The notes under the pieces are model-generated. The model saw nothing but the letters and a program-made list of their open reading frames with translations. It was not told the DNA's origin and searched no databases. DNA of 64,000 bases from Thermococcus peptonophilus (GTDB lineage: Archaea > Methanobacteriota_B > Thermococci > Thermococcales > Thermococcaceae), in NCBI RefSeq assembly GCF_001592435.1, contig NZ_CP014750.1, positions 1,612,001 to 1,676,000 of the forward strand, given 5' to 3'. The position numbers and the translations under genes are program-made. Positions 42,292 through 46,792 of this stretch are shown here, piece by piece (within the stretch, counting starts at the first letter, position 1; each line of letters opens with the position of its first letter).

Positions 42292-42486
42292 TTAAAAATT
42301 TGACGGAGGCTCAGGCCGTCGATCCCGGGCATCCTTCACCCCAAAGGCCAATCTCATCATTGCCGAAATTGCGTTTTCTCTTGGTGTTAAAGTTTTTGCG
42401 GACGTTGTTCTCTTCAGCATGGATGCGCTCTTCAGAAACGTGTTGTAGAACTGCCGCATAGCGAGAATAACGGAAGCTTTCCACAC
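42292..42486 (-). other. short open frame between CRISPR array and TIP49, possibly a gene remnant
   Basis: On the minus strand about 64 codons are open from the edge of the first CRISPR repeat to a TAA at 42292 (segments RQFYNTFLKSASMLKRTTSA, LTPRENAISAMMRLAFGVKD). The plus strand is also open over the same bases (LIIAEIAFSLGVKVFADVV). Neither frame has a convincing ribosome binding site or recognisable family, so this may be the end of a degraded gene or chance. Confidence 0.2.
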
Positions 42487-44204
42487 GACTACGTTCTACG
42501 GAAACAGAACTACAAGGGGTGATTTCAGTGGTTGGCGGTGAGACAACTTTCCACACGACTACGTTCTACGGAAACAAGGAAAACCAAGAGCTCAAGGATC
42601 TTGTCGATCGCCTCTTTCCACACGACTACGTTCTACGGAAACGGCACGACGATCTAAGCCCGAGCATCATCAGCGAGTGCTTTCCACACGACTACGTTCT
42701 ACGGAAACAGCGCGGACGAAACCCCTCATAGCCGTCCCTCCAGTGCTTCTTTCCACACGACTACGTTCTACGGAAACGCTACTGCTCGCGTCGACTGTCT
42801 CAAGCAGGCCACCAGCTTTCCACACGACTACGTTCTACGGAAACCCGGCTCTAGTCAACTTGACAAACACAACACCAGCAGCTTTCCACACGACTACGTT
42901 CTACGGAAACCCCTCATCGTCGAGCGCCGCGAAGAGTATTTCCAGACCCTCTTTCCACACGACTACGTTCTACGGAAACTGCATTTTTGAGTTTGTCAGT
43001 CAGGCCTGCAGAAGCACTTTCCACACGACTACGTTCTACGGAAACCTCAATAGAAATCGCGGCACTCAGTATAACCCACATAACTTTCCACACGACTACG
43101 TTCTACGGAAACGTATTGCATCCATCACGAAGTCCGCGACGTCCCTGTAGCTTTCCACACGACTACGTTCTACGGAAACGAGGCGGTATTACCACAAGCA
43201 GGAGCCCAATTAGCACTTTCCACACGACTACGTTCTACGGAAACCTGCTGGTCAACGGTCGCGGCGAGGTCGGCTATGGCGAGCTGGCTTTCCACACGAC
43301 TACGTTCTACGGAAACCGGTCTCTGGCGTCAGCGTGCCGTGCTCCTGGAGAACTTTCCACACGACTACGTTCTACGGAAACATAGACCGCGACCTGGCCG
43401 TTCCACTGGAGTTCCAAGGTACTTTCCACACGACTACGTTCTACGGAAACGTCGGATCGTAGGTTCTCAGCAACTCAACAGCCTGCTCTTTCCACACGAC
43501 TACGTTCTACGGAAACGCTCGCAGAACCCTCGACACCAACGCCCCTAACAACCTTTCCACACGACTACGTTCTACGGAAACTTGTAGAAGGGTTCACTTG
43601 GGGGTGGGGTCTCTGGTGAATGGTCTTTCCACACGACTACGTTCTACGGAAACCAGTACCGCTGGCATTCGTAGTGCTCGTTGAACTCTTCGACTTTCCA
43701 CACGACTACGTTCTACGGAAACTCGGGGAGTGTCAGGGTGATGATGGCCTCGTTGCCGCCCTTCCCTTTCCACACGACTACGTTCTACGGAAACGTCGCA
43801 AAGAAGGCCCGCGAGCTCGGTTTCTCGAAGATCTTTCCACACGACTACGTTCTACGGAAACTAGCGGAGTGATTGACGTTGAGTTCAAGAAGAAGGTCGC
43901 TTTCCACACGACTACGTTCTACGGAAACCTTGTGAAGCGCCGTCCGAAAACGGCCACTCTTGAGAAGTTTGTCTTTCCACACGACTACGTTCTACGGAAA
44001 CTCGTTTCCTCAACGGCCTCGTTTACGTCCTCCCTCTTATGACTTTCCACACGACTACGTTCTACGGAAACGCCGCGCTTCTGGCTGATCAGGTTCAGGT
44101 ACTCGCGGCTTTCCACACGACTACGTTCTACGGAAACCTCCCGAGATGTCTATTTTATCCCCAACGTAGAGCGTACTTTCCACACGACTACGTTCTACGG
44201 AAAC
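42477..44204 (-). CRISPR. CRISPR array, 26 repeats and 25 spacers, transcribed leftwards
   Basis: A 29-base repeat occurs 26 times without a mismatch that I could see. On the plus strand it begins CTTTCCACACGACTACG and ends TCTACGGAAAC; first copy 42477-42505, last 44176-44204. Spacers are 36-44 bases. In Thermococcales the transcribed repeat begins GTTTCC and ends GGAAAG, giving an 8-base 5' tag ending in GGAAAG, so this array is transcribed on the minus strand with its leader on the right. No cas gene lies in the window, so processing and interference must rely on Cas proteins encoded elsewhere. Several spacers contain good coding sense, for example those around 43795 and 43862, as expected for captured mobile DNA. 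Confidence 0.98.
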
Positions 44205-44706: not shown

Positions 44707-45468
44707 TCAAAGCACGTTCAGGTACTTGTGGACCTGGAAGCTGAGGCCGACGTTCTTCCTGCCCATTATTCTTGCTGCCTCGCGGTAGAGCTCCATGAGC
44801 TTCGCCTGGGGGATATCTATGGGTTCCCTCGGCTGGATGACGAGAGGAGCGAGGTCCTTTAGGAGCGATGCGTACCATCGGACGTTCTCCACCTTAGTCT
44901 CGCTCGTGACGACAAGTTTTGCATAGGTCTTCGCCCCACCTTCCTTCAGGATTCTGATGCTCTCAACCTCCCTGAGGACGAGGCCGTTCCAGTCTTCAGT
45001 CGCCCTCGCGCTCTCGTCCTTTATGTCCACGCTCGCATAATCGGTCAGCGGCGCTACCTCTTTGATCAGCTCTGGAAGGCCGCCGTGGGTCTCTAGGAAG
45101 TTATCGAAGCCGAGCTCTTTCATCCTCTCCATCAGGGTCTTGAGGGCCTTCACCTGAAGGGTCGGCTCTCCACCGGTGTAGCTTATGGAGTGTATGTCTC
45201 CAGTATCGAGCCTCAGAACGGCATTAACGACCTCTTCAACGCTCGCAGGGTTAGGCCTGTATTCAAATCTCCCTGTGAAGGGCTCGACCTCGTACCTCCA
45301 GCGGGAAACCCGGGAGGCGTCTATGTATTCCTTTGAGTCGCACCAGAGGCAGTGAAGATCGCAGCCGGCGAAGCGGACGAAAATCTGCCTCCTTCCGAAG
45401 GCAGAACCTTCGACGCTCCCTCCTTCTCCCTGCCAGCTGTTGAAGACCTCCGCCATTATCACCCTCAT
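44707..45468 (-). CDS. queE: 7-carboxy-7-deazaguanine synthase (radical SAM)
   Basis: 253 residues. Radical SAM enzyme making 7-carboxy-7-deazaguanine, precursor of archaeosine in archaeal tRNA. The cluster motif is seen in AGCDLHCLWCDSKEY; SWQGEG near the start, ISYTGGEPTLQ and LETHGGLPE are conserved in QueE. ATG 45468 follows GAGGTGTC. A small unknown gene precedes it by nine bases on the same strand, so the two are co-transcribed. No other archaeosine gene lies in the window. Confidence 0.9.
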   Translation of the reverse strand: MRVIMAEVFNSWQGEGGSVEGSAFGRRQIFVRFAGCDLHCLWCDSKEYIDASRVSRWRYEVEPFTGRFEYRPNPASVEEVVNAVLRLDTGDIHSISYTGGEPTLQVKALKTLMERMKELGFDNFLETHGGLPELIKEVAPLTDYASVDIKDESARATEDWNGLVLREVESIRILKEGGAKTYAKLVVTSETKVENVRWYASLLKDLAPLVIQPREPIDIPQAKLMELYREAARIMGRKNVGLSFQVHKYLNVL

Positions 45469-45477
45469 TCTGACACC

Positions 45478-45738
45478 TCACAGCTCTTCAACGTCAATTC
45501 CCTTTACCTTTTCGCTGATGAACCCCTCAAGTATCTCCACCCTCACTTCTCTCTCCTCGCCGGTCATGTCTGCCATGAGCTTCACTGCCCTGGCGAAGTC
45601 CCATAGCCTTCTCTTCGCGGCATTTTCAACAACCTCTGCCATCACTATGAGCTCCTTCTCCTTGGGATGGGCACCCATCCACTCAATCACTTTTTTGGCG
45701 TCTTCCTCGGTAAAGACGCCCCTCTTCTTGAACAGCAT
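45478..45738 (-). CDS. small helical protein, function unknown
   Basis: 86 residues, predicted helical (FTEEDAKKVIEWMGAHPKEK, LWDFARAVKLMADMTGEERE). No family recognised. ATG 45738 follows GGTGGTTGCC. Ends nine bases before queE, so it is likely in the same operon; whether it helps deazaguanine synthesis is unknown. Confidence 0.55.
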   Translation of the reverse strand: MLFKKRGVFTEEDAKKVIEWMGAHPKEKELIVMAEVVENAAKRRLWDFARAVKLMADMTGEEREVRVEILEGFISEKVKGIDVEEL

Positions 45739-45798
45739 GGCAACCACCAAAGCTTTAGTTGTTTAATCCAGCAATTACATAATCACATAATTGGGCAA

Positions 45799-46299
45799 TC
45801 AGATATACCTGAGCAGGACTTCAGCGGCCTCATCTAAAAGCTCCTTTTCCTCGCCCTCGAGGATTCCTGCAAGGTAATGGAGCGCGTGAACGTCTATGAT
45901 TATGTACGCCGTGTTCCTGTCGAGACCGAGGGAGTATGCATCGTAAAAGACCCTCCTCTCGCCCAATGCCTCGTTCATCAGCTCGACGTACGCGTTTATC
46001 TCTTCAACCGTCAGCTCATCCCACTTGCTCTCCATCTCGTCAAAGTATTCCTCAAGCGTCCGTATCTTTTCGAGGTCGAGCTTAAGCATGCCTTCTACGA
46101 ATGGAAACTCGCCGACGCGGAAGACCTTGACGTCTTCATTGTCCTCTATAGCTATATAGTCCCACAGGACGACGCCTTTGATGGGATTGTGGCCGTATCT
46201 GCTCGCGAGATACGAAAAGCGCTCAAGGGCAAAGTCAATGTCGTCTATAAACTTCTCTTCATCCTCAAAATGGACTATCTTGCTCACAGTCCCGGTCAT
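45799..46299 (-). CDS. acidic protein of unknown function
   Basis: 166 residues, strongly acidic, mixed alpha/beta (GTVSKIVHFEDEEKFIDDID, VVLWDYIAIEDNEDVKVFRV). No family recognised, no membrane segment. ATG 46299 follows GGTGCGAGG. A TATA-like CCCTTATAAC on the minus strand at about 46331-46340 is its likely promoter. It precedes the small gene and queE by 60 bases on the same strand. Confidence 0.55.
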   Translation of the reverse strand: MTGTVSKIVHFEDEEKFIDDIDFALERFSYLASRYGHNPIKGVVLWDYIAIEDNEDVKVFRVGEFPFVEGMLKLDLEKIRTLEEYFDEMESKWDELTVEEINAYVELMNEALGERRVFYDAYSLGLDRNTAYIIIDVHALHYLAGILEGEEKELLDEAAEVLLRYI

Positions 46300-46382
46300 G
46301 CCTCGCACCGGTGGGAGAAGGGCTGGAGGGGTTATAAGGGTTTGGAATGGGCAAGCCTTTTATTTGGTCGCGCGATAACCCC

Positions 46383-46453
46383 AAGTGCCCGACGAGTATT
46401 GGGTTGCGATGACGTCGGGACCCCCAGGGGGGCGACATCCCCACTGCCCCCCT
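46383..46453 (+). ncRNA. candidate GC-rich structured RNA
   Basis: About 70 bases, far more GC-rich than its surroundings, with two perfect seven-pair stems: CCCGACG (46388-46394) with CGTCGGG (46413-46419), and GGGGGGC (46427-46433) with GCCCCCC (46446-46452). A GATGA sequence sits at the base of the first loop and a GACA after the first strand of the second stem. A TATA-like CCTTTTATTT at 46356-46365 is about 20-28 bases upstream. GC-rich intergenic hairpins in hyperthermophiles are often guide or other small RNAs; H/ACA-like is possible, but no class is assigned. Confidence 0.4.
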
Positions 46454-46463
46454 TTGAAGTAAG

Positions 46464-46472
46464 GTTTATAAG
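46464..46472 (+). promoter_or_regulatory. TATA box of the DUF357-DUF555 genes
   Basis: GTTTATAAG, about 40 bases before the GTG start at 46505 and after the GC-rich hairpins. Confidence 0.55.
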
Positions 46473-46504
46473 AGACTTGTAAAAGGTCTGACGAGGCGAG
46501 ACCG

Positions 46505-46792
46505 GTGGGGCGTGAGATAACGGATGAGAAGCTTCAGAAGTATTTCAAAATAACCGAAGAGGCCCTTGAGAGGCTTGAAATAGCCGTCCACGAGAAGAGC
46601 CTTCTCATGAGCGTCGCCCGCGACTTTTTGACCATGGCGAGGAGCTATTTTGAGGACGCCAGGTACTACTACGAGAGGGGCGACTACGTGACCGCTTTCG
46701 CCGCTCTCAATTATGCCCACGGGTTTATTGACGCTGGAGTGAGGCTTGGAGTGTTTAAGGGTGAAGACGACAGGCTTTTTGCCTTTGGGTGA
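46505..46792 (+). CDS. DUF357 family protein
   Basis: 95 residues, helical. [20 protein letters not shown] followed by [18 protein letters not shown] is the signature of DUF357, an archaeal family resembling a HEPN/TPR-like helical bundle, function unknown. The start is GTG 46505; no in-frame ATG is available at the N-terminus. The stop overlaps the ribosome binding region of the DUF555 gene, so the two are coupled. Confidence 0.75.

Follow-up and report, generated by a model that had tools for sequence, protein, structure and literature searches.

The sRk28 RNA of the Thermococcaceae as a probable stand-alone gene, and its possible mode of action

The locus and the RNA that it carries

The window analysed here, a stretch of 64,000 nucleotides from Thermococcus peptonophilus, holds an intergenic element of 66 nucleotides (46387-46452, plus strand) between the gene of a protein that we call F0 on one side (45799-46308, minus strand) and a DUF357 gene on the other (46505-46792, plus strand). 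Its sequence contains two hairpins of seven pairs each, P1 and P3. The sequence-only reading of this region had pointed to two seven-pair stems and a TATA-like element as a candidate small RNA with its own promoter, and these are indeed where it had seen them. The features of the locus are as follows.

44707-46308, minus strand: cluster of F0 (169 aa), F2 (90 aa) and a QueE-like radical SAM gene
45799-46308, minus strand: F0, 169 aa, no assigned function, divergent, most constant neighbour of sRk28
46353-46364, plus strand: promoter, with BRE AA at 46353-46354 and TATA box TTTATT at 46359-46364
46387-46452, plus strand: sRk28 RNA, covariance model match at contig positions 1658387-1658452
46388-46394, plus strand: P1 5' strand CCCGACG, partner 46413-46419
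46395-46412, plus strand: P1 loop AGTA(TT)GGGTTGCGATGA, near-invariant in the 59-sequence alignment
46401-46404, plus strand: putative pseudoknot strand GGGU, candidate partner ACCC at 46420-46423
46408-46412, plus strand: GATGA in the P1 loop of the window sequence
46413-46419, plus strand: P1 3' strand CGTCGGG, partner 46388-46394
46420-46426, plus strand: linker ACCCCCA, including the candidate pseudoknot 3' strand ACCC (46420-46423)
46427-46433, plus strand: P3 5' strand GGGGGGC, partner 46446-46452
46439-46442, plus strand: CCCC in the P3 loop of the window sequence
46446-46452, plus strand: P3 3' strand GCCCCCC, partner 46427-46433
46465-46472, plus strand: TTTATAAG, TATA-like box of the DUF357 gene, 3' of the RNA

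The RNA in its exact extent gives a better fold than 196 of 200 shuffled sequences (z -2.47); for a wider cut of 91 nt, folding was not significant (z -1.28, with 20 of 200 shuffles equally good). The decisive evidence that the element is real is its conservation, the covariance model finding the RNA, in a single copy each, in 76 of the 94 family genomes. A DNA search of the same 94 genomes showed the block 46386-46454 to be kept at about 85 to 97%, with the flanks mostly not kept.

The element is almost certainly the orthologue of sRk28, an RNA listed in Pyrococcus abyssi at 527697-527833 with a 5' end at 527798 (Phok 2011, PMC3124441). In a P. abyssi genome (G004) the covariance model matches at 527730-527797 on the minus strand, 1 nt from the published 5' end, and since the contig concerned has SscA at 636803, against a published start of 636804, the two coordinate frames agree. 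The 59 sequences behind the model include both the window copy and the G004 copy, and the latter also matches the window DNA directly (E 1.9e-15). The earlier claim of a small noncoding RNA is borne out by orthologue transcripts described in the sRk28 parts of two reports. In P. abyssi, Northern blots gave species of 70 and 100 nt, the RNA being scarce or absent in stationary phase (PMC3124441), and in T. kodakarensis the orthologue was detected by dRNA-seq as a growth-phase-regulated orphan transcript (Jäger 2014, PMC4247193). The element shares the sequence family, the 5' end position, the hairpins and a possible pseudoknot with the sRk28 of these accounts. The RNA itself is thus already known.

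At the gathering threshold, no Rfam family matched the window element, nor did any match within six related loci that hold the RNA, and a scan of 46250-46560 at E<=10 returned only three unrelated weak matches. SscA/sRk33 and the Hgc RNAs are likewise conserved orphan RNAs of Thermococcales, but they belong to different families, and no Rfam model, theirs included, matches the element. sRk28 is without an Rfam model; the 59-sequence alignment and the covariance model now exist.

Covariation, loops, promoter and RNA ends

For the comparison, 86 loci were reduced to the 83 that show the structural pattern (L076, L077 and L078 dropping out), from which 59 distinct sequences were taken for the alignment. 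Dropping a further 8 loci as duplicates from genomes already represented gave the 75 genomes used for counts; one diverged match, in G079, is counted among the 76 genomes and left out of the 75. In the covariance search of relatives that had been suggested as a check, both stems show compensatory double changes. Among the 59 distinct sequences, 99.3% of cells are paired in P1 and 95.6% in P3, with column pair 7-30 of P1 being CG in 43, GC in 14 and UA in 2, and column pair 48-66 of P3 being GC in 26, CG in 24, GU in 1, other in 7 and a gap in 1. When the partners are shifted by one to three columns, pairing falls to 41-63%, against 98.0% in register. Each of three genera (g1, g2 and g3) contains more than one type of P1 pair, and the change in P1 therefore arose more than once.

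The P1 loop and the linker are near-invariant in the same alignment, the only free variation in the loop being 2-4 nt between AGTA and GGG. Pairing of GGGU in the loop with ACCC in the linker is possible in 59/59 sequences, and the three variants found are all one-sided and keep the pairing. A pseudoknot has been proposed earlier for sRk28 (Phok 2011, PMC3124441, in its sRk28 part), and our data fit one; since the pairs are invariant apart from three one-sided changes, the pseudoknot is unproven by covariation. A contact between the loops, GUUG with CRAC, also pairs in 59/59 sequences with three one-sided changes, and is kept only as a possibility because two of its columns also belong to the pseudoknot. 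The sequence-only reading had considered a switch-like alternative fold possible, with GGGG pairing with the CCCC at 46439-46442, but this fold is not conserved: CCCC is found in the second loop of only 9 of 75 genomes. Used alone, RNAalifold favoured a mini-hairpin of CCCC/GGGG within the linker; it contains no double change, and we did not adopt it on account of the GC/CG swap in P3.

In a kink-turn, sheared GA pairs stand in tandem where two helices meet, with a 3-nt bulge, and an archaeal H/ACA guide is a stem with an internal guide pocket and an ACA just 3' of the stem. The GAUGA in the loop could point to a kink-turn RNA, possibly a guide for RNA modification of the H/ACA or box C/D type, and the kink-turn, as well as membership of the H/ACA or Hgc families, had been raised for this element. 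Judged by eye against the definition above, the loop lacks tandem GA: beside the stem, GAUGA faces A-G-U-A instead of the required GA in all 59 sequences except L068, where it faces AGUU. The Rfam check gave no match to either family, and the only ACA (46435-46437) lies inside the loop of the second hairpin, P3, and not 3' of a stem; under the usual motif rules there is also no CUGA box D partner. We consider a guide or other kink-turn RNA highly improbable.

The TATA box TTTATT lies at -28 to -23 relative to 46387, and this promoter is found at fixed spacing across the 75 aligned genomes, which together with the covarying stems strengthens the claim of a small RNA. A G at +1 and a pyrimidine at -1 occur in 75/75 of them, A or T at -33 in 96% and at -27 to -24 in 99-100%, and all four positions from -27 to -24 are A or T in 74/75. 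The eight Pyrococcus-type genomes carry AAATAA, AGATAA, GATAAA or TTTAAT at -28 to -23. The account of P. abyssi sRk28 in Phok 2011 (PMC3124441) recognised no promoter and proposed that the RNA originates from an operon transcript, derived from a 5' UTR; in contrast, we find a promoter of fixed geometry that includes the Pyrococcus-type genomes. Judging from the sequence, the +1 would be G46387, at the base of P1, and the 3' end probably falls just after P3.

A leaderless micro-ORF, running from GTG at 46385 to a TAA (VPDEYWVAMTSGPPGGRHPHCPPLK), has a reading frame that is open in the window, but the alignment refutes it and leaves it next to no chance. The start is not kept, the codon being NCG in 27 of 75 genomes (with C at -1), and the frame is broken in relatives by an in-frame TAG in L007 and L084 and by element lengths of 64-70 nt.

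Of the 28 loci read, most have a TATA-like box in the stretch that separates the RNA from the next gene, and in T. kodakarensis the gene downstream of sRk28 is reported to have a separate TSS and promoter (Jäger 2014, PMC4247193, in its sRk28 part). In the Pyrococcus-type genomes the ATG of the next gene follows P3 after about 31-35 nt, with a TTTTTAA- or TTTTAA-like box about 20-30 nt before this ATG and a T run ahead of it that ends near +100. The end of P3 and the T run near +100 would match the two transcript sizes, 70 and 100 nt. In the Thermococcus-type loci L026, L027 and L036, blocks, up to about 1 kb long, of hairpin-rich noncoding repeats begin 2-3 nt past the end of sRk28, and TTAC stands directly 3' of P3 in 18 of 75 genomes. 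The 3' end of the RNA is possibly an insertion hot spot.

Gene neighborhood and the preQ1 riboswitch reading

Neighbours were counted by tblastn and by strict ORF clustering. In 64 of 75 genomes F0 is found upstream of the RNA and on the other strand, and in 1 it is downstream; in L054 (G031), the RNA and F0 stand in tandem on the same strand, with F0 at +151, as opposed to the usual divergent order. In eight genomes, all of the Pyrococcus type, the gene after the RNA is a PP-loop gene and F0 is absent from the vicinity, and in two neither F0 nor the PP-loop gene is found within the available stretch. F0 has no Pfam or NCBIfam match, and its sequence has no match in the PDB below E 0.6; its predicted structure is confident (mean pLDDT 92.4), and comparison of this model with PDB folds gave no match at E<=0.001. 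F2 likewise has no match in Pfam or NCBIfam. About 2 kb from sRk28 there is a CRISPR array (42477-44204, Rfam CRISPR-DR41, 26 repeats listed).

With F0 divergent and within 110 nt of the RNA in 51 of 75 genomes, transcription of sRk28 could in principle tune F0 and thereby the F0-F2-QueE cluster, with the RNA product mattering little. However, in 8 of 75 genomes (Pyrococcus type) F0 is no longer linked to the RNA, and in 13 the distance is stretched, while the RNA sequence is still conserved, and the covarying stems indicate that the RNA product is required. An effect of divergent transcription is therefore improbable.

The first downstream gene of sRk28 is of at least eight different kinds. 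By lineage these are genes for DUF357, ribosomal L37Ae-like, topoisomerase-like, HTH, helicase-like, PP-loop and other proteins, where the names other than DUF357 and PP-loop come from reading the sequences and not from a family search. In L056, L057, L058 and L081, among others, the nearest downstream gene is convergent. Since the downstream genes vary between lineages, it is unlikely that the RNA is a cis switch for one fixed target.

This bears directly on the reading under which sRk28 has been cited so far, that of a putative archaeal preQ1 riboswitch, a cis element in a 5' leader that senses a 7-deazaguanine, which was put forward by Phok 2011 (PMC3124441) and repeated by Jäger 2014 (PMC4247193) in their parts on sRk28. 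Growth-phase regulation and the possible pseudoknot speak for it, preQ1 riboswitches, like sRk28, being small RNAs that contain a hairpin and may form a pseudoknot, and it is suggestive that the divergent cluster of the window has a QueE-like gene in third place (44707-45468, minus strand; best NCBIfam match QueE, below the cut-off). No preQ1 family of Rfam matched in 46250-46560 even at E<=10. sRk28 further differs from them in having its own promoter and no constant que gene downstream: the downstream gene is mostly unrelated and has its own TATA-like box in most of the loci read, and across the 75 genomes the RNA is not consistently located in a 5' leader belonging to the queuosine pathway. 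QueE is not linked to sRk28 in Pyrococcus and in G002. Moreover, QueE is present in 74/74 high-quality genomes and sRk28 in 66/74, and that genomes without the RNA keep QueE counts against the preQ1 reading.

The neighbour in P. abyssi that has been cited as QueC does not support this reading well, as it reaches no NCBIfam cut-off. The best NCBIfam match of this Pyrococcus PP-loop protein is TtuA, with 41 bits of 450, and QueC scores 29 of 150. In Pfam, where the orthologue in L074 was used, it passes the gathering score of QueC only over 60 of 210 profile positions, namely the PP-loop part, and it also matches ThiI and others, so the QueC label is weak. Altogether, we regard a preQ1-like riboswitch in cis as very unlikely, and the cis-switch reading published for sRk28 is not supported by our comparison.

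Instead, sRk28 is very probably a stand-alone gene and not a 5' leader, as indicated by the published transcripts in two relatives, the covarying stems, the promoter of fixed geometry, the single copy and the inconstant downstream gene. sRk28 is one of the few orphan RNAs conserved across the Thermococcaceae, and since the comparison argues for a separate gene with its own promoter, searches for ligands and partners should look for a mode of action in trans.

Possible mode of action and distribution

How such an RNA might act can be outlined as follows. Transcription from G46387, at the base of P1, to just past the GC-rich P3 would give an RNA of about 66-70 nt, whose 3' end P3 may shield at high temperature. 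Through GGGU/ACCC, the invariant P1 loop would fold back, perhaps touching CRAC in the P3 loop, to form a compact pseudoknot, and the folded RNA would act in trans, most likely through binding to a protein or a small ligand during growth. Near-invariant loops on covarying stems seem typical of receptor-like RNAs, and the conserved fold suggests protein or ligand binding. For a compact receptor-type mechanism in trans, taken alone, we put the chances slightly below even, and the chain as a whole, from a stand-alone RNA dependent on growth phase to action in trans through a compact pseudoknotted fold, seems to us evenly balanced between right and wrong. A more specific version is doubtful. According to this, sRk28 would be a free-standing pseudoknot RNA from its own gene that senses a ligand or protein and acts in trans as a riboswitch-like receptor without a cis target, ancestrally paired with F0 and, in most non-Pyrococcus genomes, also with the preQ0-pathway (QueE) cluster.

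The main rival to a receptor-like fold acting in trans is antisense action, in which the invariant loop GGGUUGCGAUGA would pair with mRNAs in trans. As many as 58 of the 59 distinct sequences share these 12 nt, the exception being L050, the RNA's own genome has one perfect complement of the loop besides the RNA locus, and nine sites are found at one mismatch or fewer (own locus included) versus two for a reversed control. However, the perfect site is not at a start but midway through an ABC-permease-like reading frame, predicted pairing with the 5' regions of F0, F2, QueE and F7 was no better than for shuffled sequences, and the loop is predicted to be engaged within the RNA itself. The strong target score of F8 in Pyrococcus is an artefact, as the target window overlaps the RNA itself, and the target search gave nothing convincing. 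We therefore regard antisense action as rather unlikely.

The distribution of sRk28 is specific to the Thermococcaceae as far as tested: the covariance model finds the RNA in 66 of the 74 good-quality family genomes and gives no match in 21 other genomes of the phylum (76 of 115 overall). A wider contig scan returned 15 records, all from Thermococcus, Thermococcaceae or Thermococcales, and the viral contigs scanned gave 0 matches; as these 15 records are far fewer than the copies known here, the scan is a weak test of absence elsewhere. Phok 2011 (PMC3124441), in its part on sRk28, describes the RNA as kept in all thermococcal genomes compared except T. sibiricus. A search for missed copies, with filters off, in 16 loci that were mostly upstream of F0 plus a few others uncovered diverged, decayed or partly deleted copies at L117:96-160, L116:2476-2540, L111:2433-2491 and L076:2715-2758, of which the L076 copy is partly deleted and the L117 copy was already a weak match of the covariance search. 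These decayed or cut copies and the absence from T. sibiricus indicate that sRk28 is dispensable in some lineages. The remnants in L111 and L076 both lie upstream of F0.
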